IMG/VR virus record: IMGVR_UViG_3300024346_000063
Coordinates: 1 to 60,291 of that record
Source: a virus
Length of the DNA: 60,291 nt
Strand: one strand, 5' to 3'
Shown here piece after piece: positions 5,729-33,796 of the stretch. Below the pieces are notes generated by a model. The model worked only from the letters and a program-made list of their open reading frames with translations. It ran no database searches and had not been told where the DNA came from. Each line of letters begins with the position of its first letter. Position 1 is the stretch's first letter. The translations under genes were made by a program, and so were the position numbers.

Positions 5729-5749
5729 ACGGTAGGCAAAGCTAACCGT
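5729..5749 (+). promoter_or_regulatory. Hairpin in the leader of the capsid gene
   Basis: ACGGT (5729-5733) pairs with ACCGT (5745-5749); with an inner GGC/GCT pairing it forms a short hairpin with an AAA loop directly after the scaffold stop codon. A weak TCTTTT run follows several bases later. It could attenuate transcription, protect the capsid mRNA or be chance. It starts the 137-nt non-coding leader of the capsid gene. Confidence 0.35.
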
Positions 5750-5865
5750 AGCAAATCTTTTAAAATTCAAAGAATGTAAGATATGAGGTGCCATTCCTAA
5801 AGGCAAAGCTATTAGGGATTAAACCATTTTTAAAAACAATTTATAAACCCTTTAAAAATTTAAAA

Positions 5866-12337: not shown

Positions 12338-15300
12338 ATGGCTATATTAACAAAATTTGCATCAGCGTTTACACTAACAACTGGGTTTAATGATAACTTC
12401 ACTAATCCACAAAATGCGTATGCAACAGATGGAGTTTTTGCCACTAATACAGATAGTAAACCGAGAAACAGAGAATTTGCTACGAATTGGAGAGGTTTTG
12501 ATTTTTCAGCTATTCCAACGGGATCAGTAATAAATTATGTTACGATTACAAATTGGGTAAAAATATCCTCAGCTAATACTTCAGGGCAATGGCGTAGTTC
12601 TGTTTGGGCTGATGTTACGGTTGCAGCAGCTTTAACAGCAGGGGTAACTGGTGCTATTGGAGATAATCAACAAGTGTTTCCTACTACAAGCACAACTCTT
12701 GCGAATTGGAATTATAATATGCCTACTCTTCCAACATTAGCACAATTAAAAGGAGCTAATTTTGGAGTAAGAGTTCAAGCGGCACAAGGTGGTAATGGAA
12801 CGATTTATACCTATTCAATAGATTCGATTTCTATAACCGTTGATTATACGCCACCTAATTTTAAGCCAACAATAGTTTTAAATACACCAGCTAACTCAGC
12901 TATAGGGCAAAGCCTAACCCCAAAATTAGAATTTACGGGTTCTGATGTAGATTTAGATACTTTAGAATATGAAGTTCAGATTGATACTGTTAATACATTT
13001 GACAGTCAAGGTTCTACACCTTTAATAAATGCCTTATCTTCTGTACCCGATGCAGGTTTTTTAAATACTGTTAATGGTGGAGATACGCATCCGTTTAATA
13101 ATAATGAGAAAATAAGTTATACGGTTCAAAGTGCTAATAAATTAACCGCAGTAACACAACACTATTGGAGAGCAAGAGCATTTGATGGTATTGATTGGAG
13201 TGATTGGAGTGCCTTTAGAAGTTTTACTACCCTTAATAATAGATTAATAGGTTTATCCTCTTCTGCAATAACAGTCACAGGTAATTTAACTGTTCAAGTA
13301 AGTGGGGAAATTTCTGGTAATACAAATAAGAGGTTAATTTATACTTATGATTTCGATGGGAGTGATGCTACCGCACTTGATGCTGATGGGGTTTGGACTG
13401 ACGAAATAAATATACAAGATGGGAGTCTTGCTACTTATGGTTCTACATCTACTGAAGGTAGTAATACTCTTAATAATGTTAAAATTGAGGGTACAAATGC
13501 ACCTTTATTAGCTATTCCTATTGATTATGTAGCAGCAAGAATGGATGTAGAAATAGATTCATTAGGAATGGATTCTACGGATAACTACATATTAAATACA
13601 CCTACAGGTGGTTGGACTTGGGCTAAAATTCAAGCATTAGAAGTTATTCTATGGAAAAGTAATGTAATCACTTATACCAATATCCGTAGTGAAATTTATA
13701 CTGATGGCTTAGGAGAAAAAGTATCACCTACTTATCTTACTCTAATAAAGATAGGAACAGTAGCTAAAGTATATAGAACTCAAATTGTAGTTGCTACTTT
13801 TGAAGAGATCGTATCTGGAACTACAACTACAGGTATTTTAACGGAAGCTGAAAATAGTGGAGCTCTTAGAGGTGTTATAAATAATGTTACCACTACAGTA
13901 GGTATTTTAAAAGGTAAGGCAAATTTAATAGGTGTTATTAATAGTTCTACTACTACAACGGTTACTTCTATAACTTTAAAAATTTATGTAGCTTCTAATG
14001 GTATTGCTACAGTTACAGGAGTTATTCATGCATATGCAAAAGCTTTTGGTGTATCAAATGGTGTTACTACAACCGTTGGTGTTATATTAGGTTACGCTAA
14101 AATATTTGGTATTTCTGATGTTATAGTATCTACACAAGGTATTTTAAGAGGTATAGCTAAAATGAATGGCGCTTCTAATACTTCTTCAACTACAGAAGGG
14201 ATATTGGCTAATGGAGTTATCATACAGCCTATTGATGGAATTATAAATGGCATTGCTACGACTAATGCTATTTTAACAGCTAAAGGGATTGTACAAGCTG
14301 TATCTAATGTTGCTTTAACTGTTAGTGGTGTACTAAATGCAAGAGGTTATTTAGTTGGTGCAATCAATACATCTACTAATCTTACAGCTATACTTTTAGC
14401 AAAGGGAAAGCTGGTTGGTTCTGCCGATGGTTTAGGTTCTTGTGCAGGACTTCTAAATTCTAACCTACAAGGGAGTGTTATCGTTAATACAACGACTAAC
14501 ACTTTTGGTATTTTAACAGGTGATGGTGCACTTGTTGGTTCTTCAAATGCAACTAATCAACTTATAGGTTTACTTTCTTCTTCACTTCAAGCTGTAGGAA
14601 CTACCAATGGTACTACAACAATTTCTGGAATATTACAAGCAAAAGGGGAGTTGAATGGGTTGAGTTTCAACCAATCAACCGAAGAGGGTATCTTAAATGC
14701 TATCGGACAATGTATTGGACAATCTATTGGACAGTGTACGATAGAAGGCTTATTAGTATCTAATATTATTTTTGGTACTGCTAATGGTAGTACTACTATA
14801 AGTGGTCTTATTTCACAAATAGTAAGTATTAGTGCTGTTAGTAATAATACGGCTTCAACATCAGGTTTACTAAATTCAAATCTTCAAGGTTCTGTAGTTG
14901 TCAATACAACTACAATAACCTTCGGTATATTAACTGCAAGTGGTTCACTTATAAGTGAAATTACATCAGTAACAACATTACAAGGTTTATTAAATGCTAT
15001 AACGCAAATTCATGCTGAATCCAACGGTCTGACGACTTCTGTTGGTGTATTGCTTGGTAAAGCGAGTTTGAGTGCAAGCGTTAATAGTTCATCGTCAGTA
15101 TCAGCAACATTAAATGGATTAGGAGTTAATGAAGGAACGAGTCAAGGTGCCACTTTGATTTCTGGAGTACTCTTAGCAAAAGGATCACTGAACGCAACTA
15201 TTAACGCCACTGCCTCAACAACTGCTACTATCGGTAGTGGTGCTATGTCAGCTACCTCAAATGGTAGTAGTTTATTATCAGGGTTACTAAACTCTAATTT

Positions 15301-16267
15301 ACAAGGCTCTGTAGTGGTTAATACTACTACGATTACAACAGCTACATTAACAGGTTTAGGACTACTTGAAAGCGTTACCAACGCTTTTGCGTATGTAGAA
15401 GGAATTATAAGTTCATTCGCTTTTATAATTGGAGAGAGCAATGGTCAGGCAACAACAGAAGGGATACTTACAAGTAATGCTATAAATGGAAACTCTTATG
15501 GTAGCACTACAACAAATGGTATTCTTACTGCTAAAGGAAATTTAAACGGAGAAATAAATACGTTAAGTATAGTTACTGCTATTCTTAATGCACTATCAAA
15601 TACAATAGGTACTTCTAATGGATTAACAACGATAACCTCAATACTTAAAGGTAAAGGATTATTATTAGGTATATCGAATGGTGTTACTACGACCAGTGCT
15701 TCTATAAAGTCTATAGGAGCATTGGAGGGTAGTAGTTCATCACTAACAATTTTATTAGGTTTCTTAGAAGGAGTAGGCTCAATAGCTGGTAGTTCCAATG
15801 GACAGGCCTCAACAGAAGGTATTCTTATTAGCGATGCTATGGCTGGGATTGCTAATGGAACAGCTACAACACAAGGAATACTATCAGCTATAGGCTTATT
15901 ATCAGGAGAGAGTAATGGTGTTACAGAACTGATTGCAGGACTATATCAAACAAACCCTATTTTCGGAACGATTGATGGAGATACTATATTGATAGGTATC
16001 TTAACGCAATCTACAGCTCTTTCAGGCACTTCTAATGGACTTTCTATTGTAAGTGGAATACTATTAGGTAAACGAGGTTTAGACGTTAAATGCTTCTATG
16101 AAGTGCATTATGTAGACCACCAATATTTGATTAAATATATTAATGTTAATTTTATAGTGCAATATTTGAAAGTTGAATATCTCACAAAATATAAGATTAC
16201 TAATTTTGTAGTACAATATCTAACCGAAAAATATAACTCAAAATATAAATGCGATAAAAATGGATAA
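12338..16267 (+). CDS. Large repetitive tail/appendage fibre
   Basis: A 1309-residue fibre. Residues 1-~175 form a beta-sandwich-like domain. Residues ~176-300 are fibronectin/Ig-like, with the typical phrases KPTIVLNTPANSA and HYWRARAFDGIDWSDWSAF. A further beta domain runs to ~490. From ~491 to ~1245 there are roughly 38 units of about 20 residues, consensus G-I-L-x-A-K-G-x-L-x-G-x-S-N-G-x-T-T-x-x, probably a continuous beta-solenoid or trimeric fibre shaft. A 139-residue super-repeat is marked by LLNSNLQGSVVVNTTT at residues 705, 844 and 983. The last ~60 residues change to an aromatic/basic repeat. No enzymatic motif is seen. The gene overlaps the next by 8 nt. It likely makes a host-binding appendage (inference). 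Confidence 0.75.
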   Translation: MAILTKFASAFTLTTGFNDNFTNPQNAYATDGVFATNTDSKPRNREFATNWRGFDFSAIPTGSVINYVTITNWVKISSANTSGQWRSSVWADVTVAAALTAGVTGAIGDNQQVFPTTSTTLANWNYNMPTLPTLAQLKGANFGVRVQAAQGGNGTIYTYSIDSISITVDYTPPNFKPTIVLNTPANSAIGQSLTPKLEFTGSDVDLDTLEYEVQIDTVNTFDSQGSTPLINALSSVPDAGFLNTVNGGDTHPFNNNEKISYTVQSANKLTAVTQHYWRARAFDGIDWSDWSAFRSFTTLNNRLIGLSSSAITVTGNLTVQVSGEISGNTNKRLIYTYDFDGSDATALDADGVWTDEINIQDGSLATYGSTSTEGSNTLNNVKIEGTNAPLLAIPIDYVAARMDVEIDSLGMDSTDNYILNTPTGGWTWAKIQALEVILWKSNVITYTNIRSEIYTDGLGEKVSPTYLTLIKIGTVAKVYRTQIVVATFEEIVSGTTTTGILTEAENSGALRGVINNVTTTVGILKGKANLIGVINSSTTTTVTSITLKIYVASNGIATVTGVIHAYAKAFGVSNGVTTTVGVILGYAKIFGISDVIVSTQGILRGIAKMNGASNTSSTTEGILANGVIIQPIDGIINGIATTNAILTAKGIVQAVSNVALTVSGVLNARGYLVGAINTSTNLTAILLAKGKLVGSADGLGSCAGLLNSNLQGSVIVNTTTNTFGILTGDGALVGSSNATNQLIGLLSSSLQAVGTTNGTTTISGILQAKGELNGLSFNQSTEEGILNAIGQCIGQSIGQCTIEGLLVSNIIFGTANGSTTISGLISQIVSISAVSNNTASTSGLLNSNLQGSVVVNTTTITFGILTASGSLISEITSVTTLQGLLNAITQIHAESNGLTTSVGVLLGKASLSASVNSSSSVSATLNGLGVNEGTSQGATLISGVLLAKGSLNATINATASTTATIGSGAMSATSNGSSLLSGLLNSNLQGSVVVNTTTITTATLTGLGLLESVTNAFAYVEGIISSFAFIIGESNGQATTEGILTSNAINGNSYGSTTTNGILTAKGNLNGEINTLSIVTAILNALSNTIGTSNGLTTITSILKGKGLLLGISNGVTTTSASIKSIGALEGSSSSLTILLGFLEGVGSIAGSSNGQASTEGILISDAMAGIANGTATTQGILSAIGLLSGESNGVTELIAGLYQTNPIFGTIDGDTILIGILTQSTALSGTSNGLSIVSGILLGKRGLDVKCFYEVHYVDHQYLIKYINVNFIVQYLKVEYLTKYKITNFVVQYLTEKYNSKYKCDKNG
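13810..16070 (+). repeat. Array of about 38 SNG-type 20-residue coding repeats
   Basis: Protein-level tandem array within the fibre gene, with a unit of about 60 nt. Conserved positions are a Gly-Ile/Val-Leu turn, an Ala-Lys-Gly or similar, and a Ser-Asn-Gly followed by Thr-Thr. DNA copies have diverged strongly at synonymous sites. Three 417-nt super-repeats begin at 14450, 14867 and 15284. Confidence 0.85.
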
Positions 16268-19515: not shown

Positions 19516-22500
19516 ATGGAATTAAATTTCGAACAATTACATCTGTTTGTAGAGGGAATGAAAAGTTCCAGAGAACAAAATGCAGAAGAGCCAAGTTCTT
19601 ATGAATATGGTTTAAATGGTAGATTATATTCTGAAAATGGGAAGCTATCTTATTCTTCTATAAAAGGAACTGTTCCTATTTATAACAATCCTAAAATCAT
19701 AAAGTATTTAGGGTTTTATGCTTTTCCTGATGAATTATTGTTACTTGTAAAGTATGATGAAAATGCTACAGCCAATTTAACATCAGAAATTTCAACACAA
19801 ATTATAGCAAATGATATTTCTATCAATCTTGATTTTGGAACTACACAATATGTATTCAGTAATGAATTAAGTATAGGCGCTATTGAAAATATAAATCAAG
19901 CTACTGTTCAATCTTCTCCACAACCTGTAGAACCATTAACAGAAAATTACAATCAATCTGGTGAAATCAAAACGATTGATTTTAACGAGTATTATTTACT
20001 AAGTGGTAAAACAGTACCAAATTATCAAATATGCACATTAGGTAACGCTAATACTATTCCTGAATACAACAAACAGTACTCTGATGCTTTTATAGTTTTA
20101 AAGAATGATGGTTATCATGCTTTTAAAGGTAGATTAGCCTGGAAAGGAAATCTAAATTGGGATATAAATCGTAAGATAACAACAGTAGGAATTGATGAGG
20201 GTATTCATTACAAGCGTGTATATTTTACAGATAACTTAAATCCTTTACGTGTTATCAATTTAAAAGACAAAAATTTATTCTATAGAACATCAGAAGAATT
20301 TAATGTATTACAAGATGCTACATTATTACAACCTAAAGTAAGAAAAATTACTGAAGGAGGTTCTATAAAGGCTATGTCTGTACAATATGCGTATCGTTTA
20401 ATGACTGACAATGGACAAGTGACTTCTTTTTCTCCTTTTTCAGAACTTATAAAAATAGTAAAAGATGAAGATGGTTATGATTTTGCAGGTGGTGCAATTG
20501 ATAGTTTAACCTCTAAACGTGTAGAATTAGATTGCCCTATAATTTCAACACTATATTCAAAAGTTCAATGTATAGCTATAGAATTTAAAACTGATAGCAC
20601 ACCTACGTCTTTTAGAAATTTAGGAATACAAAATGTTGATAGTGTTGTTTCTTTTATCCACAGTGGAAATGAAAGTGAATTAGAAGATATTTTAACTATA
20701 GAAGAAGTTATTGAAACTAAACACATCTGGACATATTGTAATGATATAACTATTAAAAATAACAAATTAATAGCAGCAGGACTTAGAAACAAACCTTATT
20801 CTCTTCAAGAAAAATATGTAGAAGATTTATTCTTATTTAAAGGTTGGGATGAATTAGGTGCATCTCATGATAATGCTTTAATAAATCCAACTCCTACTAC
20901 ATATAAATATTTTGATCCTACATATACTGGGGATATGATATATGTAGAGAAACAATTATATACTCGTTTCCTATTTTTTGGAAATGTAACATTGACTTTA
21001 AATAACAAGTTAAATCCAAATATTAGAGAGTCTATAACTTTTAAAAGCAGTGCTGACCAATATATAGATTATACATTAGATGTTGGGGCTTGGTTAAAAG
21101 GATTAAGTGCTGGAAAGTTAGAATTGTTTCCAAATCTAAAAATAGAACAAATAGATTACTCTATTTTATTTAGTCCTATAGACGAGCTTATAAAAACTAA
21201 TATGTCTAACTATTATTTTACAACTTCTGTAACACAAGTTATTATAGATTTTGAAAATCAATATAGCATATTAGACACAGCTGTTAATCCTTCAGCTTTA
21301 GTTTTTGGAGCTCAAAGTATTGGCTTTAATCAAGGAACAGGTATAAGAGTTAGTTTCGAACAGCAGGAAGAAGCTATTTTAAATAAGTCACCAGAATTAT
21401 ATGATGGTGGAGAGCTTTTAAAATTACAAACACCATCTTTAAAAAAGACTTTTGTAAAAGATGAAATATACCGTTTAGGAATACAATGCTATAAATCAGG
21501 CTCACCTCTATTTACAATCGTATGTGGAGATATTAAAACACCAGCTGTAGGAGAGTTAGATTATAAGAACCAATCTGATGATGGAAATCAATTATTCGTA
21601 CATAGACTTGAATTAAAAGTTGAGGTAAGAATACCATGTGAATTTAAAGACTATATAGACTCTTATCAGATTGTTTATGTGGAACGTACAGAAAACAATA
21701 GGACTATTTTAGCACAAGGATTAGCTGGTCCACTTATTAGATTAGCAACTATAAACCACCCTTCTGTTAATGGTACAGCATATGCGCCTGATGTATATGA
21801 TAAATGGACACTTCCTTTCAATGGTGGGCCTTTATATTCAGTTAATGGCTTATTGACTTATACTATGTTAGGTGAGAATTGGGATGATTTTGAAGAATGG
21901 TCAGATGATTGGGGTGATACTTCAGATATACGCCAAAGAGTTTTCACACGTGAAATTGTAAATAGAAGAATGTTTTATTTTGATTCTCCTGATGCTATTT
22001 ATTCTAAAATTTCAGACCGTAATTTTAAAAATGGAAAGATAGAAGTCTTAGGTAGAGTGAATACAGACCATACAGGACATCTTATTAGAAGTCGTTTTCC
22101 TGGAGATGAAATTCACCCAGCTTATGTTCTTGACGTAGGCACTGGCATTGGACTTACATTTGTCAGTGTGCCTCCTGGATTTCAAGAAAGTGAAATTTAT
22201 AAATCATTGGCTTATTCTAAAAAGATAGGTTATACAAATGTTAGTGGTACAAGTTCATCTAAACCATATCACGTCAATGTAAGTGTATTCTCACAATTTA
22301 CATTAGATAAAAAAACAATAGAAATAGATAAGACTACAGATTTATTAGCTAAAGGTGAAGTGTTACCATCAGCGATATTAGGAACTTCATTTGATATTTC
22401 AAATATGGCTTTAACATTATTTGCTCAAAATGCTTATAACAGTTCACTATTTTTAAGTGCTGTTTATCATGATAGGTTACAGCGGATATTATGTGGTTCA

Positions 22501-25500
22501 CATAAATCCTCAAATAATAGTGAAGGATATCCATCTATATTTATTCGTGCTAAAGAAGATGTTTTTACAGATGATTTTATAGGTGCGCATAGATACAATC
22601 CAATAAAATCTAAACCTCATACTTGGGAAGGTGTAAGTAAGCTTGTAGATATTAATGGAGATTTAACAACTGAAGGTGTTCCCTCTACTGATGCACATGC
22701 TATTATCAATATAAAAATGGATAATGAAGGTAGCATATATGGAGGAAGAACAAAGTATGCTTTTTCTAAAAATGTATTTATACCATTGAGTGAAGTTATT
22801 CCATTAAAAGGAGCTACAGGAGATAACCAATCACAAAAATTTAATGTGCAAGGAGATTTTTATGTATCATTATTTTTAAGAACAAAAAATGACTACTCAA
22901 ATGCTTTACCTCCAGAAAAACACGATATGCATCAAAACAATAATTATGTTGACGAGCATTATTTTGCTTCAATAGATGATTGGAACAGAGGTGGTGCATG
23001 GGCTTATGCTGTAGTTTTAGAAACAGAAATAGAAAGTAGATTAGCAGATAGCTATCGTTTTTATAGAGCATCAGGTGGTGTTAATTTTGATTTAGGTATT
23101 AATGAATTTATCAATTCAGCATACTATAAGAAAAATGATTTAAGAAAATACATACCGGTTCCATTTAATTTTAAAGATGATCCTTTAATGGTAAGTAGTA
23201 TATCAGCATCTAAAACAAAATTAACAGGAGATTATGTTGATGCTTGGACTACATTCTTACTATATGAGTTCTATGAATTAGAAAAAAGTAAAGGTATCAT
23301 TACCAATATAACAAATTGGAAAGATGAAATCTTTGCTATTCAAGAATATGAAACCAATCAAATAAATGTTGATACTACTAATTTTGTAACAACTAATGAA
23401 GGTCAAAGTGTAGCTATACAAAAAGGAACAGGCTCTACTTTTACAAATCATAAGAAAGTAAGTGATTTTGGTACTTCTATTCGTAGAGCTTTAGCAGAGG
23501 GAGAATTTGGGTTTAGCTTTATAGATGAGAAGAACAAAGCTTTCGTAAAATTCGGAGAAAGTCTTAGTTTACCTTTAGAGATACAATTAAAACTACAAGA
23601 ATTATTCCAATACAATAAGATTATAGATACAGAAGGTTACTATGATGTAAAATATAAAGAGACAAACATTCGTATTCGTACAGAAAGTGGTCTTACTTAT
23701 CTACTATCATACAATGAACTTTTACAAAAATTCAATGGTTGGTTAGCTTATGATAATGACATTTATATCACTTATGACAAACGTGTGTTTGCACCATCTT
23801 GTCAAATCAGAACTGTTGTTTTAGAATTGCCAGAAATTTCAAGTAATCTACAAGTGGAAATGCAAGTAGGAAAATATTCTGAATATCAGATAACTGTTGC
23901 TGAAGAAGTTTCAGGAAAAGGAACAGCACCAAAACCAGTTAGCTATACAGCTACGAATTTACCTGATGGATTAAATATCAATATCAATACAGGATTGATT
24001 TATGGAGTTCCTACTACAGTCGGTACTTACAATGTTCCTATTGTCGTAACAAATAGCGTAGGAGTTTCACAAGTAATATTGATAGTTATTGTAAACCCAG
24101 CTACATTAGTTGGAGAAACTAATGGTAGTTCAGAAGTTATAGGAGTACTTGGTTATTTAGAAACTGTAAATATTGAAGGTATTTCAAATGGTCAAGCTGA
24201 TGTTTATGGTAAGCTAAAAGCTAAAGGTTTATTAGAGGTTACTATTAACGGTATAGCTACCACAAATGGAACTCTTATAGGTAGAGCATATTTCGATGAA
24301 GATATAAATGGTAGTAGTACTGTCACAGGTCAAATAGAAGCTATAGGAAGTCTTTTGGGAATATCTAATGGCGTAACATCAGTTGTAGGAGAAATCACTG
24401 GTAAGAGCTTTATTTACGGTATTTCAAATAATGTAGCAACAGTAGTAGGAGTATTATTACAACCATTAGAATTTACAGGTTATGCAACTACATATGATAT
24501 TACTAACGATTGTAGAATATTAGTAACTGGTACATTCTCTCAATATGGTACACCACATTCAAAACAAACTGTTAATGATATTGCAATTATTGATAGCTGT
24601 GGTAATTTAGATGAAACATTCAATGCGAATATAGGTCTTGGGTTCAATGACTTTATGTATTGGGGTTATGGTTCTGCAATAAGTCACGATGGCTCTATAT
24701 TTGTTGGTGGTTCATTTACTACCTTTAATGGAGTTAGCACAAATAGACTTGTCAAATTAAATCCTGATGGAACAAGAGATTGGTCTTTTGATATAGGAAC
24801 AGGTTTCAATAAAGCCTCTGCTATACCACTTATAAATAAAGATGGTAGTGTATTCTATTTCGGTAGATTCGATACTTACAAAGGTGCGTGGAGAGGTCAA
24901 ATAGTCAAACTAACTCCTAATGGAACAATAGACTATTCATTCAGTGGTTACTTTACGAGCAATATCCCTATACAGTTAATGGATGTTGGATATAACCAAA
25001 TGATAGCTCATGGATATACTGTTGGATATAATGGTAGCTATATCCCTCATATCGTTAGAATAGATAAAACAACAGGTCAACGAGATTGGACTTTTAATGT
25101 GCCAGTAGGACCTAACATTGCCGGAGAAGGAAAAGTAATGTTCAGTTTTGTCGATGGAGAAAAAATTATAATGCTTAGTCAATTCTTTACTCAATGGGAT
25201 AATTTACCGGCTGGTGGTATTGTAAGGTTAAATAGAAATGGTTCAAGAGATGAAACATTTGTTACAGGTACAGGTTTCACTGGTGGAGTAGTTTATAAAG
25301 GTGCTGTATTTGAAGGAAAATATATTATATCTGGTACGTTTACTGCATACAATGGAACACCTTGTCCTCGATTGGTACGATTAAATCAAGATGGTTCATT
25401 AGATAATACATTCAATTGGAATAATAATTATGGTGATTATGGACCTTACAATATGGTTGTAATGGGTGAGAACATTTATGTTTCTGAAGCAAGAGGTGCT

Positions 25501-28500
25501 GGAACAGCACAGTATCTGTTAGTTGTAGATAGAGATGGTAATGCTAAGAGAATGAAGAAAAACCCTAATAAGTGTATTCCTTTCTCTTGTGGTAGTAGAT
25601 TAAAAGGTGTTATTTATGCAAAAACATATCCTTATGGTATTTTAGGTGTTAGACCTAACGACCAAATAATAGGAGTAAGTAATGGTAGTGCTGTAGTAAG
25701 TGCTGATATAATTGACATGCCTAATCCAAACTTAATGGTAGGAGCAAGTAATAGTAGTTCTACAGCAGAATTATATGTAATTACTTTTGATACAACTTGG
25801 AATGTTAATTTGAGTGGTGGTCAGTCTTCTCCATCCGGTACATTATATTTTCCTCTAAATATTGAAGAAACTTATGATTTCATTATAGAATGGGGTGATG
25901 GAACATCAGATAGACTTACTAATGCTGGTCAAGCTGATAGACATCATACTTATGTTAGTACTGGAACAAGTATTTATAATGTAAAAATAAATGGTATTAT
26001 TCCTTTTCATTTTATTTTTGCAGCTTATGGTGTAACTTATACTGATGCAGCAAAATTAATATCTGTTGATAGATTTGGTCCTATGAAATTTTCTCAATTT
26101 GGAAGAACATTTAACGGTTGTATGAATTTAACAACTTTAGCTGATGATCCTAATTTTGAAACATTTACAAGTGGTGAACTTGTATTTCAAGATAATGAAA
26201 AATTAGTATCAGATATTACTAATTGGGATACGAGTAGAGTAACTACTATGAAAGGAATGTTTTCATACACCTCTAATTTCAATCAAGATATTACTAATTG
26301 GGATACAAGTAATGTAACGAATATGGAAGATATGTTCTTAAGTTGTTATGATTTTAGTATAAATCTTTTTGGGTTAGATGTTAGTAAGGTTACAAATACT
26401 AACCACATGTTTTACAAATGTTTTAAATTTAATGGTACAGTACCAGCATTTGGTCCTCTTTTGCAGAGTGCAATTCGAATGTTTTATGACTGTACAATAT
26501 TCAACCAACCTTTAAGTCATTTAGATGTAAGTGGATTGCAAAACGCAAATAGTATGTTTCTAGCTTGTACAACTTTTAATCAAGATATTAGCGGTTGGAG
26601 ACCTCAAATTACAAATGCAAATAGTATGTTTAATTATACTCCATTTTTCAATTCAGATCTTAATGATTGGGATATGAGTAATTGTGAAGAAATGACCTCA
26701 ATGTTTAGTGGTTCAGCCTTTAATAAACCATTAAATCTTTGGAATACAAGTAGTTTAAAACTTACTCGATTTATGTTTGACTATAATCAGGTCTTTAATC
26801 AAGATATTAGTAGTTGGGATATGAGAAAAGTAGAAGACGCAGAAGCCATGTTTCAATATGCTAATGCTTTTAATCAAGACCTTAGTGGTTGGCAGTTTGA
26901 AAATTTAAAACATGCAGGCTTTATGGCTGGTAACAAAGGATATACTGATGAATGGAATTTCTCTAAATTAGAGACTGTTAGACGCTTCTTTGGAGATGTT
27001 TATAAAGGAGACCTAAATAAATTTGATATAAGTAATATAACAGACTTTACTTGGATTTTTGGAGGAAGTAATATTAATAAAGATTTTTCAAGTTGGGATG
27101 TTAGTCATGTAACTACAATCAATTTTTTTGCAGGAAATAACGCTGCTTTCAATCAACCTTTAAATCATTGGGATGTTAGTAATGTTACAGATATGAGTCA
27201 AGCATTTTGGAATACACCATCTTTTAAACAAGATATTAGTGACTGGAATATTAGTAATGTTACAAATATATCTACATTCTTTGGTGGTACTACTAATTAC
27301 CCTACACATCTTGTTGATGCTTGTATAATAAAATGGAGTCAATTACCTTCTTTAAAAATCACTAGCATAACATTTGGAATTGGGAAGCATTCTGAAGCTT
27401 CGGTAGCTGCAAAAGCATTACTATTAAGTAATGGTGTAAATGTTACTACTGGTGGTTTGATGGCTGGAAAATGGTGTATAGGGAAATCTATAAAAGCTAA
27501 AGCTACAACAATAGGCTCTTTAAGACAAACAGTATCTATGGCCGCTACTTCAAACGGATTAGCTACTATAGATAACACTATGATAAGATTAGGAATATTA
27601 TCAATACAAGGAATTTCTAATGGTTTAAGTACAAGTTCACTTGCTACAAATCCTTTTATCCTTGAAGTTACAACTACTACACAAAACCAAAATGTGATAT
27701 TGCCTCTTGCTAAAACTTATAATTATGCTACTAATACAAGTCTTGTAGTTGAGTCAAATGTTGATTGGGGTGATGGTGTTGAACAATATATTGAGTCTAA
27801 TACTTCTCTTAATAAATCTCACATTTATGCTGAACCAGGAGTTTATCAAGTTAAACTAACAGGAAGAATAGATGCTTTATATCCACTTAGTTATGGAAAT
27901 ACTAATAGTGCCTTTACTGATATAATTCAATGGGGAACTAATGAATTTAAAGAATTAACAGGAGCATTTAAAGGTTATCCAAATTTAAAATCTACAGGAG
28001 TAGGACCAATATTTTTTTCAGGAGAACATCTTACAGGTTTATTTCAAGATTCTACTTTAATAACTTCTGTATCTGAAAATTTATTTACTAAATGTCCAAA
28101 TTTAAAATCAAATGCTTTTAAACAAACATTTAAAAATTGTAGATTAACAACAATTCATGAAGACTTATTTAAATCTAATACTGGAGTTTATAATTCAGCT
28201 TTTTATGAAACTTTTAAAGATAATAAGTTAATTTCAATACCTGAAAATTTATTCAGATATAATACAGAAGTACATGATTATGCATTCTATGGTACTTTTC
28301 AAAATAATGAAATAACAACAATACCAGTTGATTTATTTAAGTATAATACTAAAGCATTAAATTATACTTTTACACATACGTTTAATGGTAATTCACTTTT
28401 AACAGTAATTCCAGATAATATTTTCACGAATTTCAAAGGTACATTAGCTCCTTTTACTTCAACGTTCTCTAATACGGGTATTCTATCAATACCAGAAACC

Positions 28501-29322
28501 TTATTTGCAGGATTAGTAGATATAAAAGGTGGTGCTTTTTCAAGTACTTTTTCAGGTAGTCAAATAACATCAATACCAGCTGATTTATTTAAGGATAATA
28601 TAAATGTAACTTCTTTTGCGGGTACTTTTGCAGGTACTAAAATAACAACAATACCAGCCGATTTATTTAGATATAACACAAAGGTTGGTGTATCTGCTTT
28701 TAGTTCTTGTTTTAATTCTTGTTCAGAATTAGAAATAGTTCCTTCTGATTTATTTAGATATAATACAGAAGCTTCTGCTTCTGCTTTTATTTTTACATTT
28801 GCACAAACACCTAAATTAAAAACAATACCAGCTGATTTATTTAGGTACAATACTAAAGTAACGACAAATGCATTTCAATATCTTTTTTATCTTAGTGGTA
28901 TAACAACTTTACCAGCTGATTTATTTAGATATAATGTTTTAGCTAGTAATTACGCTTTTTATCTTATGTGTTATGGTGCAAACGAATTATTAACATTACC
29001 AGAAGGTTTATTTAGATATAATGTGAATGCTAATGTTGGTGCTTTTGATTACACTTTTTATGATTGTAATAAATTACAATTAAATAGAAATATATTTTAT
29101 AATGATGGAGAACAGGCAACACGCTTTGCAGGTAGTACTGATATAACTTTTTCTGCTACTTTCAATAAATCAGAAGATTTAGGATTACCAGGAGAAGCCC
29201 CTGATTTATGGAATTGTAACTTAGGTACTACACCGGGAGCACATTCAGGTACTTTTGGTGGATTAGGGAATAACTCAACTAGTTTAAGTAATTATAATTT
29301 AATACCTGTAGATTGGAAATAA
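19516..29322 (+). CDS. Giant modular tail protein: muzzle-like N-terminus plus adhesin ectodomains
   Basis: A 3268-residue protein. Residues 1-~1445 begin LFVEGMKSSREQN and SYEYGLNGRLYSENGK and contain a sequence like SYNELLQKFNGWLAYDNDIY near the end, a layout I recognise from the large crAss-like muzzle protein. Then come: an Ig-like (He-PIG) domain (~1445-1530; LPDGLNININTGLIYGVPTT); SNG repeats (~1531-1652); a beta-propeller of delta-60 type (~1654-2047; GGSFTTFNGVSTNRLVKLNP); SNG units (~2050-2088); a PKD-like strand plus BspA/DUF285 leucine-rich repeats (~2091-2605; NWDTSRVTTMKGMFS); SNG units (~2660-2710); and a PKD-like opening with a second leucine-rich array (~2715-3205; IPADLFRYNTKV). 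Host-surface binding is inferred from these modules. Confidence 0.75.
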   Translation: MELNFEQLHLFVEGMKSSREQNAEEPSSYEYGLNGRLYSENGKLSYSSIKGTVPIYNNPKIIKYLGFYAFPDELLLLVKYDENATANLTSEISTQIIANDISINLDFGTTQYVFSNELSIGAIENINQATVQSSPQPVEPLTENYNQSGEIKTIDFNEYYLLSGKTVPNYQICTLGNANTIPEYNKQYSDAFIVLKNDGYHAFKGRLAWKGNLNWDINRKITTVGIDEGIHYKRVYFTDNLNPLRVINLKDKNLFYRTSEEFNVLQDATLLQPKVRKITEGGSIKAMSVQYAYRLMTDNGQVTSFSPFSELIKIVKDEDGYDFAGGAIDSLTSKRVELDCPIISTLYSKVQCIAIEFKTDSTPTSFRNLGIQNVDSVVSFIHSGNESELEDILTIEEVIETKHIWTYCNDITIKNNKLIAAGLRNKPYSLQEKYVEDLFLFKGWDELGASHDNALINPTPTTYKYFDPTYTGDMIYVEKQLYTRFLFFGNVTLTLNNKLNPNIRESITFKSSADQYIDYTLDVGAWLKGLSAGKLELFPNLKIEQIDYSILFSPIDELIKTNMSNYYFTTSVTQVIIDFENQYSILDTAVNPSALVFGAQSIGFNQGTGIRVSFEQQEEAILNKSPELYDGGELLKLQTPSLKKTFVKDEIYRLGIQCYKSGSPLFTIVCGDIKTPAVGELDYKNQSDDGNQLFVHRLELKVEVRIPCEFKDYIDSYQIVYVERTENNRTILAQGLAGPLIRLATINHPSVNGTAYAPDVYDKWTLPFNGGPLYSVNGLLTYTMLGENWDDFEEWSDDWGDTSDIRQRVFTREIVNRRMFYFDSPDAIYSKISDRNFKNGKIEVLGRVNTDHTGHLIRSRFPGDEIHPAYVLDVGTGIGLTFVSVPPGFQESEIYKSLAYSKKIGYTNVSGTSSSKPYHVNVSVFSQFTLDKKTIEIDKTTDLLAKGEVLPSAILGTSFDISNMALTLFAQNAYNSSLFLSAVYHDRLQRILCGSHKSSNNSEGYPSIFIRAKEDVFTDDFIGAHRYNPIKSKPHTWEGVSKLVDINGDLTTEGVPSTDAHAIINIKMDNEGSIYGGRTKYAFSKNVFIPLSEVIPLKGATGDNQSQKFNVQGDFYVSLFLRTKNDYSNALPPEKHDMHQNNNYVDEHYFASIDDWNRGGAWAYAVVLETEIESRLADSYRFYRASGGVNFDLGINEFINSAYYKKNDLRKYIPVPFNFKDDPLMVSSISASKTKLTGDYVDAWTTFLLYEFYELEKSKGIITNITNWKDEIFAIQEYETNQINVDTTNFVTTNEGQSVAIQKGTGSTFTNHKKVSDFGTSIRRALAEGEFGFSFIDEKNKAFVKFGESLSLPLEIQLKLQELFQYNKIIDTEGYYDVKYKETNIRIRTESGLTYLLSYNELLQKFNGWLAYDNDIYITYDKRVFAPSCQIRTVVLELPEISSNLQVEMQVGKYSEYQITVAEEVSGKGTAPKPVSYTATNLPDGLNININTGLIYGVPTTVGTYNVPIVVTNSVGVSQVILIVIVNPATLVGETNGSSEVIGVLGYLETVNIEGISNGQADVYGKLKAKGLLEVTINGIATTNGTLIGRAYFDEDINGSSTVTGQIEAIGSLLGISNGVTSVVGEITGKSFIYGISNNVATVVGVLLQPLEFTGYATTYDITNDCRILVTGTFSQYGTPHSKQTVNDIAIIDSCGNLDETFNANIGLGFNDFMYWGYGSAISHDGSIFVGGSFTTFNGVSTNRLVKLNPDGTRDWSFDIGTGFNKASAIPLINKDGSVFYFGRFDTYKGAWRGQIVKLTPNGTIDYSFSGYFTSNIPIQLMDVGYNQMIAHGYTVGYNGSYIPHIVRIDKTTGQRDWTFNVPVGPNIAGEGKVMFSFVDGEKIIMLSQFFTQWDNLPAGGIVRLNRNGSRDETFVTGTGFTGGVVYKGAVFEGKYIISGTFTAYNGTPCPRLVRLNQDGSLDNTFNWNNNYGDYGPYNMVVMGENIYVSEARGAGTAQYLLVVDRDGNAKRMKKNPNKCIPFSCGSRLKGVIYAKTYPYGILGVRPNDQIIGVSNGSAVVSADIIDMPNPNLMVGASNSSSTAELYVITFDTTWNVNLSGGQSSPSGTLYFPLNIEETYDFIIEWGDGTSDRLTNAGQADRHHTYVSTGTSIYNVKINGIIPFHFIFAAYGVTYTDAAKLISVDRFGPMKFSQFGRTFNGCMNLTTLADDPNFETFTSGELVFQDNEKLVSDITNWDTSRVTTMKGMFSYTSNFNQDITNWDTSNVTNMEDMFLSCYDFSINLFGLDVSKVTNTNHMFYKCFKFNGTVPAFGPLLQSAIRMFYDCTIFNQPLSHLDVSGLQNANSMFLACTTFNQDISGWRPQITNANSMFNYTPFFNSDLNDWDMSNCEEMTSMFSGSAFNKPLNLWNTSSLKLTRFMFDYNQVFNQDISSWDMRKVEDAEAMFQYANAFNQDLSGWQFENLKHAGFMAGNKGYTDEWNFSKLETVRRFFGDVYKGDLNKFDISNITDFTWIFGGSNINKDFSSWDVSHVTTINFFAGNNAAFNQPLNHWDVSNVTDMSQAFWNTPSFKQDISDWNISNVTNISTFFGGTTNYPTHLVDACIIKWSQLPSLKITSITFGIGKHSEASVAAKALLLSNGVNVTTGGLMAGKWCIGKSIKAKATTIGSLRQTVSMAATSNGLATIDNTMIRLGILSIQGISNGLSTSSLATNPFILEVTTTTQNQNVILPLAKTYNYATNTSLVVESNVDWGDGVEQYIESNTSLNKSHIYAEPGVYQVKLTGRIDALYPLSYGNTNSAFTDIIQWGTNEFKELTGAFKGYPNLKSTGVGPIFFSGEHLTGLFQDSTLITSVSENLFTKCPNLKSNAFKQTFKNCRLTTIHEDLFKSNTGVYNSAFYETFKDNKLISIPENLFRYNTEVHDYAFYGTFQNNEITTIPVDLFKYNTKALNYTFTHTFNGNSLLTVIPDNIFTNFKGTLAPFTSTFSNTGILSIPETLFAGLVDIKGGAFSSTFSGSQITSIPADLFKDNINVTSFAGTFAGTKITTIPADLFRYNTKVGVSAFSSCFNSCSELEIVPSDLFRYNTEASASAFIFTFAQTPKLKTIPADLFRYNTKVTTNAFQYLFYLSGITTLPADLFRYNVLASNYAFYLMCYGANELLTLPEGLFRYNVNANVGAFDYTFYDCNKLQLNRNIFYNDGEQATRFAGSTDITFSATFNKSEDLGLPGEAPDLWNCNLGTTPGAHSGTFGGLGNNSTSLSNYNLIPVDWK
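24107..24470 (+). repeat. SNG-type repeats, linker 1 of the giant tail protein
   Basis: About six units of the same 20-residue repeat as the 12338-16267 fibre, including GISNGQADVYGKLKAKG, GISNGVTSVVGEITGKS and GISNNVATVVGVLLQ, between the Ig-like and propeller domains. Confidence 0.8.
25665..25780 (+). repeat. SNG-type repeats, linker 2
   Basis: Two units (IIGVSNGSAVVSADI and MVGASNSSSTAELY) separate the delta-60 propeller from the BspA-type array. Confidence 0.7.
27495..27645 (+). repeat. SNG-type repeats, linker 3
   Basis: Units with AATSNGLATIDN and IQGISNGLSTSSLATN lie between the two leucine-rich arrays. Confidence 0.7.
28560..29060 (+). repeat. Near-identical ~85-nt DNA repeats coding leucine-rich units
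   Basis: The phrase ACCAGCTGATTTATTTAGAT or a near copy recurs at about 28577, 28656, 28830, 28914 and, more changed, 28743 and 29000, one per 26-29-residue unit (IPADLFRYNTKV). Unlike the SNG array, nucleotide identity is high, which suggests recent expansion or gene conversion. Confidence 0.7.
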
Positions 29323-29347
29323 ATTTAACTAATGCAACACCTTAATT

Positions 29348-30607
29348 ATGGCAAAGAGTAAAATAGTAATAAAGTTTTTATCAATATGTGAACAAGGAGA
29401 TAGACTTGATATCGTAGTTGATAGACAAAGTGGACCAGTTTTATTAAGAGAAAGTTTTACAAGAACTTTAAGTACAAGTGGAGTTTCTAATACTGGTTTA
29501 GTTGCATATTCAACAAGTCCATCAAGAGCCGCATCAAATTACTATGATGCTTTAGTAAGAGATTATAGCGGTTATACTTTTTTGACTTTTAGTTACAATT
29601 CTGTTCTTGGTACAGTAACAATATCAGCGGTTGATGAATGTACTATCTTAACAACATTTCGTGTTGCTTCAATACCAATAGCAAACCCAGATACTAAAGT
29701 AGAACCTACTATTACAAATGAAGATTGTCGTGGAGATATAGTTGCTGAATTTGAGAGTGCTGTTTATTTTAACCATATTTATTATCCTTGTGATAAAGTA
29801 ACTGCAGAGATTAAAACAACAGTCCAATTAGCTACTTCTGACCAATTTGATTATAGTTTAGGATTAGAAAATCCTTTAAGTCTATCATTAGACAGAGGTA
29901 TTACTTATCGAATGACAGGGTTAGATATTAATGGTAATGCTTATGATTTTTCATTTCAGACACCTTCAATATTAAATGTGAGTTTAGTTACTATAAATGT
30001 TCGTAATGAAGTAGGACAAGCAGTAGTAGATATTATTAATGAAACTAATTTAGAACTTCAATATAATATTGATAATGGAGCTTGGCAAGTTGGAACTACT
30101 TTTTATGTTCCTTTAGGAGCTTCCTATGTATTGTATGTAAAAGATGCTTATGGTTGTGAAGACTCATTAAGTTTTACAGTAGATGAAACTGTTATCAGTA
30201 CCCCATTAATAGGGGAAAGTAGGTACTGTCCAGACCTTCATGAATTAAATGTAGGAAAATTCTTAAATTTGTTCGGTAAGCAACACACAATGAAATTAGG
30301 TTTCGTATGTAATGCAAGTCCACAGTACACTAAAATATTTAAACATATTCAAATGATATTAAGCACTGATTATGCTATCAAGAACGTTCAAGTAAAGACT
30401 TCTTTGAAACAAGAAAGATTTGTTCCGGGTAGTCATATGACTTATAGAATACGAGAAGGTATGCACTCTGTTCCTTTAAAGAACCCACAAGATGTGGCTG
30501 ATTTAAGAGGTAGCTGGGCTTATATCGAATTAGAAATAGAATCTATTAATAACACTAAGGTTGATTTATTCTCTGTAATAATGCACCTAAGAAAAAGTAC
30601 AACATAA
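29348..30607 (+). CDS. Muzzle C-terminal-like tail protein
   Basis: A 419-residue protein. Residues ~1-285 are beta-rich modules, including two segments resembling small Ig-like repeats (VTINVRNEVGQAVVDIINET and LQYNIDNGAWQVGTTFYVPL). Residues ~295-419 (FLNLFGKQHTMKLGFVCNAS, FKHIQMILSTDYAIKNVQVK, YRIREGMHSVPLKNPQDVAD, RGSWAYIELEIESINNTKVD) resemble the carboxy end of crAss-like muzzle proteins, where that segment follows the large body in one chain. Here it is a separate gene 25 nt after the giant gene, so it may complete the same ring in trans. Its stop overlaps the next start by one base. Confidence 0.6.
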   Translation: MAKSKIVIKFLSICEQGDRLDIVVDRQSGPVLLRESFTRTLSTSGVSNTGLVAYSTSPSRAASNYYDALVRDYSGYTFLTFSYNSVLGTVTISAVDECTILTTFRVASIPIANPDTKVEPTITNEDCRGDIVAEFESAVYFNHIYYPCDKVTAEIKTTVQLATSDQFDYSLGLENPLSLSLDRGITYRMTGLDINGNAYDFSFQTPSILNVSLVTINVRNEVGQAVVDIINETNLELQYNIDNGAWQVGTTFYVPLGASYVLYVKDAYGCEDSLSFTVDETVISTPLIGESRYCPDLHELNVGKFLNLFGKQHTMKLGFVCNASPQYTKIFKHIQMILSTDYAIKNVQVKTSLKQERFVPGSHMTYRIREGMHSVPLKNPQDVADLRGSWAYIELEIESINNTKVDLFSVIMHLRKSTT

Positions 30608-31404
30608 TGGCACTAACAGACACACCTCCGAGTTACTTAGACAATTTAAGAAACAATTTCGATGCATGGAAAGAAAAAGCTGATAAAGCTCAAAAGATAA
30701 AAAACCCATCTTATGAGCCTGTTAGTTTAAATCCTCCTGAAAAAAGTTTATCTGATGAACCTGGTTATGTAGACTATAAAGACTTTGATGAATCAGCTGA
30801 CCCTAACTATCAACCAAGTACAGAACAAGGGATAAAAAGGACTGAGAAACTTATTGATAGACACGTCAATAAGAGTATTAAGATGAAAGATAAAGCTGAT
30901 AGCCTTAGAGCAACAAACCCTGATAGGGCTAATAGAATAATGGATAGAAGTGAGAAACGATTGAATAGAGTATCTGAAAAAGCAGAAGGTCTTATGGACC
31001 CTGAATATGCAAGTTCATTAGGTAGTGATGTAGCCGCTGGTGGTATCGCCGCTTTAGGAGAACTACCGAGTATTGTAAATCAGTTTTCTGATAAACCAGA
31101 GTCGGCAAAAGAAGCTACCGGTAAAAGTTTATCTTTAACAGCGAGTGGAGCAAAAATAGGAATGGCAGCAGCTGGACCTTGGGGTGCGGCAGTTGGAGCA
31201 GTAGTTGGTTTTGGTAGTGGTATTATTGCTAATTCAGGTTGGAGAAAAGATCTTATGGAAAAAAACGATAAGATAGCACAAGTAGATTTAGATAATCAAA
31301 AGCAAGATAGAATGAAGCAATTATTTGAGAACTCTAATTCTGAACAATTACAGCAAGAGCAAAAAATGTTAGCACAATCATTAGGATATACACGAATTTC
31401 TTAA
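30607..31404 (+). CDS. Putative cargo/ejection protein with Gly-rich hydrophobic segment
   Basis: A 265-residue protein. The N-terminal half is charged and helical, with DRANRIMDRSEKRLNRVSEK. Residues ~175-215 are a Gly/Ala-rich hydrophobic stretch (SGAKIGMAAAGPWGAAVGAV), like membrane-inserting segments of podovirus ejection proteins, and a Gln-rich tail follows. It starts at a TAATG overlap with the muzzle C-terminal-like gene and heads the cargo block. Inference: it is packed in the tail barrel and delivered into the host envelope. Confidence 0.5.
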   Translation: MALTDTPPSYLDNLRNNFDAWKEKADKAQKIKNPSYEPVSLNPPEKSLSDEPGYVDYKDFDESADPNYQPSTEQGIKRTEKLIDRHVNKSIKMKDKADSLRATNPDRANRIMDRSEKRLNRVSEKAEGLMDPEYASSLGSDVAAGGIAALGELPSIVNQFSDKPESAKEATGKSLSLTASGAKIGMAAAGPWGAAVGAVVGFGSGIIANSGWRKDLMEKNDKIAQVDLDNQKQDRMKQLFENSNSEQLQQEQKMLAQSLGYTRIS

Positions 31405-31414
31405 ACATAATATT

Positions 31415-33796
31415 ATGGCAGTACCAACAGTAACAGCATTAGATAGACTTCTAATAGACAATATGAAAAAAGGTCTTGGGATAGAGTCTGGAGAAAAAAA
31501 ATACAAGGCCCTTAATACTTATAAAGGTCCTAATGGAGATAAGAAACCTACCTATGCATTTGGATTATATCAATTCGTTCCTTATTCTCATTTAGAAGAT
31601 ATGAGAAAGTATGCTGAAAAATATCCAGAATTAGGTATGGATATTAAAGATATGCCTACTTATGCTCAATTTAAAAAATTGCAAAATGCTAAAGATGATA
31701 AAGCAGTAGATGAATTATTTCAAGTTTTATATAATAATAAAGAATTTCAAGATGCTTTTTATGACCAATGGATGACTAAAGATATCATCCCTAATTCCAA
31801 AAAGTTACATGCTGAATTTGGTGAAAAGTATAATTTACCATTAGAAGCTTTTATTGCTTCTTCACATATTATGGGTTCTACAGGTGCAAGAACGAAATGG
31901 CTTGAAGCAGAGAAAAACCCAGCTGTTTTAGATGAAATTATTGATCCTCAAAATCCTATTTCAACTAATGATTACATTAAGAAATTCACAAAAGGAATTA
32001 CAGATAAAGGTGGACAGTTAACTTATACTACACCTGAAGAAGATGCTATATTAGACCCTAATTACACCAATGTTGAAAACATTAAAAACAGTGTTCTTGA
32101 TAATGCAGTAACACCAGAACAAAAAGGTTGGAAAAAGCATTTCACTGAATATGATGAATTAAAGAAGATTTATATTCAAAAGCAAAACGACTTACAAAAA
32201 GCAGAAGAAGATGGTTTAGACGCTTCAATAATACAAGCAGAAAAAGATGTTAAAGACGCTGAATATAATCTATATAAAAAAGGATATACTTTACAAAATG
32301 TTATAGACGAGAAAAGACTTAAACAAGCTGAAGAAGATGTTAAGTTGTATAGGAAAGGACATCAAAAAGAAAAAGATGCTCAACAAGTAATTAAAGAGCT
32401 TAAAGGGAATGTTTTAGGAAAACCTAAACAAGTAGCTAATAAAGCTGAATGGTTAGAAGGTAGACAGCCTAATTCTGGTTGGAAACTCAATAGTGGTTTA
32501 AGTCCTAAAGCAGTTAAAGAAGATAGAGATAAGAGAGAACTTTATTTAGAACAACACAGGAATATTTTAGTAGGAGATCCGATTAATCCTACAGACCCCT
32601 CTATTATTCAGAAGATAGACCAAGAAAAAGATAAGAGAGAAAAAGCTAAGGTCGTTATTCAGAATAAAGTAAAGAAAGCTAAAGATAATATCAAATCTAT
32701 TACTGATGATAAAAAAGATGTAACAGAAGATTTACCTCCAGAAGAAGAAGTACTTCCTGATGCTCCTATAGACCCTTTAGAAATTGCTAAAATAAATAAG
32801 GAGGCTGGTGATTACCTTTCACGTTTTGATGAGCCTATCGAAAATATAAGGCCTGATGTATTTGATTATGATGCTGGTAATTGGAAACAAGAAATTCCAT
32901 TTGAAGCTATCGGTGCTGGTGCTTTAGGTTTAATGGGAATGGCTGATGCTAAAACACCATTGCCAGAGAGAGATGATAAGATTTCAAATGCTATTTTACA
33001 ATATAGCAATGATTTGAAAATGATGGCTCAAATGGGATTAAAACCCGAAGAGGAAGCTAAGATGAAGCAAGAGATAGCCGAAGCTTATCAGCAAGGAATT
33101 ACAAATATTGTAAAAGCATCAGGTGGAAATAGAAATTTAGTATTGGGTGCTTTAGGTGGTTTAAATAAAGGTGTTATTGATGGTATTTCAAATATAGGTT
33201 TATTAGATATGACTAAGAAAGCTGATGCTTTTGATAAGTATGGAAAGACCTTAGAATATATTGATAACTTCAATAGAACTAAATCTATAGACAACTACAA
33301 GGTAAAACTTGAAGATGCTCAATCAAAAAGATTAAGTGGTGCTCAATTAGCTTCTTCTGCTTTCGCTAAAATGGCTGATGATATTCAATATGCTAAAGAG
33401 AATGGTCCAGGTTCTATAAACCATAGATATAAACAAGCTATGCTGTATGAAATAACAGGTGTTAATGCTGGTATCAAAGATGATGGTAGTGGAACAATAC
33501 CCGGAACAGCAAGTTACGTCAGAGCGCAACGTGCTATTGCTGATCAAGCTTACTACGATAGAAAGATAAAATACGATACAGAAGTAAACGCTCAAAATAG
33601 CTTTTTAGCATTACCTGAAAAAGATAAAATCTATTGGAAAAATAATGGTGGCTATGTGAATTTTAGACAACAATATCAAAGCCCTAAAGAACAAGACTCC
33701 AATGGTTCATTAACACCAACTCCAATGGAGGAAGTAATAAATAGAACATCACAGTATAGCCCTGATGATGATTTTAACTCATACTCTAAAATATAA
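31415..33796 (+). CDS. Ejected virion protein with N-terminal lysozyme-like domain
   Basis: A 793-residue protein. Residues ~10-175 resemble a lytic-transglycosylase/lysozyme-like domain: a likely catalytic Glu24 in LGIESGEKKY, the typical YAFGLYQFVPYSH core at residues 47-59, and a helical lobe with AFIASSHIMGSTGARTKW. Residues ~235-440 are a long Lys/Glu coiled coil, and ~440-793 a helical Ala/Gly-containing body (FEAIGAGALGLMGMADAKT). Position in the cargo block suggests it opens peptidoglycan as DNA enters. It is separated from the next gene by 3 nt. No signal peptide is seen, as expected for an ejected protein. Confidence 0.6.
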   Translation: MAVPTVTALDRLLIDNMKKGLGIESGEKKYKALNTYKGPNGDKKPTYAFGLYQFVPYSHLEDMRKYAEKYPELGMDIKDMPTYAQFKKLQNAKDDKAVDELFQVLYNNKEFQDAFYDQWMTKDIIPNSKKLHAEFGEKYNLPLEAFIASSHIMGSTGARTKWLEAEKNPAVLDEIIDPQNPISTNDYIKKFTKGITDKGGQLTYTTPEEDAILDPNYTNVENIKNSVLDNAVTPEQKGWKKHFTEYDELKKIYIQKQNDLQKAEEDGLDASIIQAEKDVKDAEYNLYKKGYTLQNVIDEKRLKQAEEDVKLYRKGHQKEKDAQQVIKELKGNVLGKPKQVANKAEWLEGRQPNSGWKLNSGLSPKAVKEDRDKRELYLEQHRNILVGDPINPTDPSIIQKIDQEKDKREKAKVVIQNKVKKAKDNIKSITDDKKDVTEDLPPEEEVLPDAPIDPLEIAKINKEAGDYLSRFDEPIENIRPDVFDYDAGNWKQEIPFEAIGAGALGLMGMADAKTPLPERDDKISNAILQYSNDLKMMAQMGLKPEEEAKMKQEIAEAYQQGITNIVKASGGNRNLVLGALGGLNKGVIDGISNIGLLDMTKKADAFDKYGKTLEYIDNFNRTKSIDNYKVKLEDAQSKRLSGAQLASSAFAKMADDIQYAKENGPGSINHRYKQAMLYEITGVNAGIKDDGSGTIPGTASYVRAQRAIADQAYYDRKIKYDTEVNAQNSFLALPEKDKIYWKNNGGYVNFRQQYQSPKEQDSNGSLTPTPMEEVINRTSQYSPDDDFNSYSKI

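Follow-up and report, generated by a model that had tools for sequence, protein, structure and literature searches.

Can the muzzle at the tail tip of a crAss-like phage be made of two separately encoded chains, and, if so, how was the chain divided and what did the new ends acquire? Few parts of the crassvirus virion are as strongly conserved or constrained as the muzzle, since it has to hexamerise, seal the DNA and open on contact. The question is raised by IMG/VR virus record IMGVR_UViG_3300024346_000063 (60,291 nucleotides, nt; this whole stretch is called the window below), in which two adjacent genes, P0001 and P0002, resemble different ends of one muzzle and are separated, at the protein level, by a long array of adhesin-like modules. 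Our sequence comparisons confirm that P0001 and P0002 are two parts of one crassvirus muzzle. We consider it likely that they form the two-gene muzzle of a distant crAss-like phage, produced by fission between the beta-propeller and the C-terminal ring-joining domain, with chain 2 joining the ring. The data behind this reading are the homology of both pieces, the position of the cut, its conservation in a clade of four genotypes (the window and contigs L004, L005 and L013), the intact chains found elsewhere, and purifying selection on both genes. Coordinates of all features are given in Table 1.

An earlier note, made from the letters of the sequence, had taken the start of P0001 and residues ~295–419 of P0002 for different ends of one muzzle, and family profiles bear this out. 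According to Pfam, crAss_MUZ (PF25731) matches residues 120–1425 of P0001 (E = 1.4e-66; profile positions 41–1219 of 1224; 225.9 bits vs. the curated cut-off of 27), and crAss_MUZ_C (PF25729) matches residues 306–376 of P0002 (E = 3.7e-7; 30.9 bits vs. the cut-off of 27), with neither profile matching any of 14 control genomes at E ≤ 0.001. P0001 also directly matches the solved muzzle gp44 of crAss001 (PDB 7qok; E = 2.1e-14); P0002 yields no match by phmmer against the PDB or by tblastn against the phage collection and is detectable by profiles only. When the muzzle bodies and C-terminal genes of the clade were compared, as profiles, with 13 intact muzzles by hhalign, both pieces again matched, as the note had expected of a comparison with the crAss001 muzzle: the body with E = 6.7e-64 over 1136 columns, and P0002 residues 296–416, aligned to gp44 1237–1371, with E = 5.5e-6. 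The cut maps to gp44 ~1236/1237, and residues 1–~1428 of P0001 together with ~296–416 of P0002 cover gp44 completely. Thus, the muzzle part of P0001 ends nearer residue 1428 than the ~1445 proposed earlier, and the array behind it, previously put at 1.7 kilo-residues, comprises 1840. Two motifs conserved in the clade mark the edges of the cut: DKRVF closes the chain-1 body and LHELNVGK opens MUZ_C. Both map to roughly one and the same gp44 strand, which may perhaps be duplicated across both chains, although we make no claim of this.

Table 1. Coordinates of the split muzzle and its modules in the window. ORF, open reading frame.
Feature	Position	Strand	Basis or remark
P0001, split muzzle chain 1 (muzzle body and C-terminal surface array), 3268 amino acids (aa)	19516..29322	+	ORF call, Pfam
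N-terminal ~56 residues of P0001, corresponding to gp44 1–57; proposed ring-joining barrel strands	19516..19683	+	alignment; role suggested by T7 gp12
Muzzle body, P0001 residues 1–~1428, corresponding to gp44 1–~1236 (N-terminal segment, beta-propeller, IG, crass domains)	19516..23799	+	hhalign
He_PIG Ig-like domain, residues 1451–1521, first module past the cut	23866..24078	+	Pfam
Short GxSNGxxTVxGxL spacer repeats, residues ~1530–1680	24103..24555	+	also in the 1309-aa protein at 12338–16267 (BLAST of P0001 vs. P0004, E as low as 5e-14)
DUF5122 (delta-60) beta-propeller repeats, residues ~1700–2060, limits approximate	24613..25695	+	PF17164
DUF285 (BspA-like) repeat domain, residues ~2199–2561, limits approximate	26110..27200	+	PF03382
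Likely second leucine-rich-like array, ~28-residue repeats, residues ~2880–3200	28153..29115	+	repeat spacing, DNA self-matches, phrog_9915
Intergenic gap, 25 nt	29323..29347	+	downstream frame +1, no simple read-through
P0002, split muzzle chain 2, 419 aa	29348..30607	+	ORF call; PF25729
N-terminal surface module of P0002, residues 1–294	29348..30229	+	L006–L008 matches, phrog_26672, Foldseek
MUZ_C, P0002 residues 295–419, corresponding to gp44 1237–1371; predicted ring-joining domain	30230..30604	+	Pfam, hhalign

The expectation that both halves belong to one chain elsewhere holds in all 22 reference phages that match both profiles at E ≤ 0.001 (Steigviridae, Suoliviridae, Elemovirus and unclassified phages; two of them unannotated and judged by the open frame). 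In 20 of the 22 the two matches are at most 117 nt apart; in Elemovirus the MUZ match is partial, and the alignment is continuous across the junction. An unannotated gut phage, MT835470 (L069, positions 5660–6234), has ~191 residues between MUZ and MUZ_C within a single frame of 1594 aa, and in crAss002 (Intestiviridae) neither muzzle profile was matched. By contrast, the window, L004 and L005 have separate ORFs and so depart from the gp44 family in its single-chain feature. Because one chain is found in 22 out of 22 references, the split looks like a derived state.

Within the clade, the split is at the same residue in all three genotypes in which both genes are visible, namely, the window, L004 (2733 and 534 aa) and L005 (1870 and 135 aa). 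The contig of L013 ends upstream of a P0002-like gene and is consistent with the split; crAss_MUZ_C exceeds its cut-off in L004, L005 and L013. What surrounds the cut varies. Chain 1 is extended past it by 1840 residues in the window, 1294 in L004 and 412 in L005, and MUZ_C is preceded by 296, 411 and 12 residues, respectively, so that the MUZ_C gene of L005 is nearly bare.

The extension of chain 1 carries bacterial-type adhesin modules. Three of the modules named in the earlier note, the Ig-like, delta-60 propeller and BspA-type ones, pass Pfam cut-offs: He_PIG (E = 8.9e-10 in full-length P0001, 3.6e-12 with the segment alone), DUF5122 (E = 1.8e-35 in the whole protein, 1.4e-38 on the segment) and DUF285 (E = 2.1e-83 in the whole protein, 1.6e-86 on the segment, in four stretches). 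The suggestion that surface modules extend the muzzle is upheld. The fourth, a second leucine-rich array with the ~28-residue unit xPxxLFRYN, is likely, although a Pfam search of this region yielded nothing above the cut-off; the AlphaFold model of the last 625 residues of P0001 has a repetitive beta pattern at low confidence (predicted local distance difference test, pLDDT, 45). He_PIG opens the extension in the window, L004 and L005, and the later modules differ among the three. The module types suggest that the array may bind the host.

The spacer repeats are also where strain differences concentrate. Compared with two near-identical sibling contigs, five out of six differences in P0001 lie within 253 nt (24124–24376), just after the Ig-like domain, four of these five changing the amino acid, and the muzzle body has none; this clustering was never reproduced in 100,000 random placements and could reflect selection, recombination or misassembly of repeats. 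A diversity-generating retroelement was rejected as the origin of the differences, as the changes are not all at A and no reverse transcriptase was found in Pfam scans of the ORFs tested. A 1309-aa protein (12338–16267) consists largely of GxSNGxxTxxGxL repeats like those between the P0001 modules and might act as a common substrate for exchanging modules.

The N-terminal module of P0002 has relatives among siphophage tail proteins. It matches phrog_26672 (E = 1.3e-5), and the N-termini of flavobacterial siphophage tail proteins are homologous to it; the Foldseek search with its model identified a protein of Polaribacter phage P12002S (E = 1.2e-17), and a protein of Nonlabens phage P12024S is also similar. 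The homology with the phrog_26672 tail proteins (P12002S and siphophage-like contigs L006–L008) spans their N-terminal ~280 residues, whereas their C-termini differ from that of P0002 and lack MUZ_C. The initial MAKSKIVI of P0002 is identical in the 645–667-aa tail proteins of L006–L008, and in L008 a tape-measure gene is among the neighbors of the homologous gene. Since this start is common to independent siphophage-like tail proteins, P0002 looks like the start of another tail gene fused to an already separate MUZ_C gene. In the AlphaFold model of P0002 alone, the N-terminal module mostly has pLDDT 57–94 up to residue 280, and MUZ_C has 36–59. The poor model of MUZ_C would fit a domain in need of partner strands, an argument of little weight given the shallow alignment. 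Foldseek matches of the P0002 model in the PDB are mostly immunoglobulin and fibronectin type III folds; two weak matches to the T7 nozzle (E from 5e-3 to 7e-3) were not used as evidence.

Taken together, the constant cut with differing extensions, the almost bare MUZ_C of L005 and the borrowed start of P0002 fit better with fission ancestral to the clade, after which modules would have accrued at both new ends, than with the order implied in the earlier note, in which the array broke the chain midway. The reverse order, where a cassette entered the loop between the propeller and the ring-joining domain of a single chain and a stop and a start arose inside it later, would give the same two-chain product; we consider it unlikely, though well worth weighing. 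It would account for the presence of modules on either side of the break in the window and in L004, and the ~191-residue insert of MT835470 demonstrates that the junction tolerates an insert with no split. However, no insert of that size is present at the junction in the other 21 intact muzzles, L005 has just a 12-residue lead and no module on chain 2, and P0002 of the window begins with a sequence homologous to the genuine N-termini of independent tail proteins.

How would two chains make one muzzle? The propeller and the ring-joining domain of the crAss001 muzzle resemble those of the T7 nozzle protein gp12 (PMC10172136). In gp12, the platform contacting the adaptor is formed by the C-terminal domain, with three of its strands supplied by the first 45 residues of the protein, and the fiber dock is on the outer surface, between the propeller and the platform (PMC6702177). 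By this analogy, chain 1 (P0001 1–1428) would form, at the tail tip, the propeller and gate together with the Ig-like and crass domains, and its new C-terminus, rather than returning to the tail barrel, would exit the assembly with the 1840-residue adhesin array. MUZ_C, the last 125 residues of chain 2, would be the ring-joining domain and fasten the muzzle to the final ring of the barrel, while the new N-terminus of this chain would bear its own smaller surface module. As the platform barrel of T7 gp12 takes three N-terminal strands, chain 2 probably completes, by strand complementation, a barrel that the chain-1 N-terminus has started, which would make the chains interdependent, with six copies of each; the segments for the proposed barrel, the P0001 N-terminus and MUZ_C, are both conserved relative to gp44 according to hhalign. 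By the same analogy, the cut would be at the position of the T7 fiber dock, and since the dock sits on the outer surface, both new ends would face outwards; with six copies of chain 1, the modules would add up to about 11,000 residues. A bolder version, to which we give an even chance, is that fission at the fiber-dock position created an evolutionary port, either new end being able to take up or exchange modules, with the barrel completed in trans and the outcome being a 12-chain receptor-binding platform with ~1.2 MDa of adhesin modules.

Several points weigh against a two-gene muzzle assembled in this way. Co-assembly of the chains, their stoichiometry and their location in the virion are proposals drawn from sequence. 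The ring-joining domain of gp44 is assigned to its C-terminal end from the T7 comparison, MUZ_C may score low in pLDDT just because four sequences were aligned, and the proposed binding function of the array is read from the module types. Finally, the clade is represented by four genotypes, all from metagenomic contigs that may be incomplete, and an additional muzzle gene could sit beyond them.

In another reading, P0001 would be an adhesin on a muzzle-derived base, with the tail tip closed by a different, unrecognised protein and P0002 a relict. The body is indeed merely 18% identical to the reference muzzles, and the surrounding gene content is divergent. Nevertheless, the body retains the whole muzzle length, the N-terminal segment included, at 60–62% identity between the window and L004 or L005, and within chain 2 conservation is highest in MUZ_C (73–82% identity). 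The ratio of nonsynonymous to synonymous substitution rates (dN/dS) is 0.16–0.25, about 0.2, for the body, with dS near saturation, and ~0.12 for MUZ_C (window vs. L013, dS 0.9). As dN/dS is low in both parts, both muzzle genes are maintained under purifying selection, judging by their sequences. The window record has a single muzzle homologue, P0001, and the profile search of the clade records identified no second muzzle, at most one being present per record, so no intact muzzle is seen in this virus or its close relatives. Additional scans of viral contigs, genome contigs and plasmids revealed no further clade members. We consider an adhesin on a muzzle-derived base very unlikely.

Rejoining of the two genes at the protein or RNA level, by programmed frameshift, read-through or splicing, would also leave one chain in the virion, and split ORFs and introns are common in some crassvirus groups (PMC7886860). 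In this clade, however, the downstream frame is +1 in the window and L004 and 0 in L005, where it follows two tandem stops; a new ATG is present in each; and the gap between the ORFs is only 3–25 nt, with nothing intron-sized in it. Because the frame offsets differ, L005 has tandem stops and each genotype has a fresh ATG, one recoding signal shared by the clade is excluded on sequence grounds; a programmed frameshift was rejected for the differing frame relation among genotypes, and we regard rejoining in general as highly improbable.

The probability that the split is unreal (an assembly error, a frameshift or a degraded gene) is negligible even for metagenomic data, as two sibling contigs from other datasets have the same two ORFs (99.7–99.95% identical where compared), the split recurs in L004 and L005 with varying frame offsets, and dN/dS is low in both genes, on which grounds an assembly artefact was rejected.

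The two-gene muzzle can be compared with several known systems. gp44 of crAss001 (PDB 7qok, 7qol and 8ckb) has the same domain order and full-length homology to the combined chains, but is one 1371-aa chain lacking the array, whereas the window has two genes, with 1840 residues after the first muzzle part and 296 before the second. The gene of a gp44-type muzzle is expected immediately behind that of ring protein R1 (tail tubular); in the window, the two genes upstream of P0001 (192 and 163 aa) do not align to R1, R2 or IHF, CrAss_Ring_2 is matched further upstream (9105–9803; 44.9 bits vs. the cut-off of 27), and Crass_capsid scores 26.0 bits, just under its cut-off of 27. Among isolated phages, tblastn with the body gives its best match (E = 1e-10) in g071 (1340 aa) of Cellulophaga phage phi14:2, which has a marine flavobacterial host; gp22 (1493 aa) of Flavobacterium phage vB_FspP_elemoF_6-3D, an Elemovirus, is the muzzle of a ~60-kb flavobacterial phage and matches MUZ_C with E = 6.5e-21. 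Unlike the window, g071 has both domains on a single chain, and gp22 is likewise a single chain, with no adhesin array at the junction. The muzzle of Pipoluvirus cr108_1 (2031 aa) is greatly enlarged, as in the window, but in one chain, with the extra sequence inside the crAss_MUZ region and not at the MUZ/MUZ_C junction. This agrees with the published sites of muzzle length variation in crassviruses, insertions in the crass and IG2 regions (PMC10172136). MT835470 has its extra sequence at the very junction where the window is split, but in a continuous chain and with no recognised adhesin module. Similarly, appendages of T7 gp12 attach at the junction of propeller and platform, as proposed for the window; however, gp12 is a single chain whose dock binds separate fiber proteins, whereas the window modules are fused to the new ends.

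No split muzzle is described in the papers that our literature searches found, and a split muzzle with modules at the cut appears to be a previously undescribed means of equipping a phage tail with host-binding parts. A clade that keeps its muzzle as two genes suggests that the domain boundary can be cut with no loss of function, and by this route host binding could evolve at the very tip of the phage tail. The split also makes testable the working of a ring-joining domain in trans and the role of the propeller–platform junction as a general attachment site, as suggested by the T7 fiber dock and the MT835470 insert.

Some observations concern genes downstream of the muzzle. A short protein follows MUZ_C in the window (30607–31404) and in L004, L005 and L013; its glycine-rich segment AAGPWGAAVGAVVG aligns with residues 125–155 of the crAss001 cargo protein gp45 (E = 2.9e-5, low complexity). 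In the 793-aa gene, residues ~190–330 (31981–32398) differ densely in sibling L003, with very few differences elsewhere, a pattern suggestive of local recombination; judged by eye, the gene appears to have an amidase-like N-terminal part in L013, and this part is different in the window. The 4163-aa protein (37333–49824) has no Pfam match. It contains ADHDGD (residue 2531), resembling the RNA polymerase catalytic motif, and a zincin-like HEFAH motif at residue 1122; judging from these motifs, it may be a virion RNA polymerase carried as cargo, with a protease-like motif. On the minus strand, 51508–52023 encodes a domain of the CAP family (cysteine-rich secretory protein; E = 8.8e-13).

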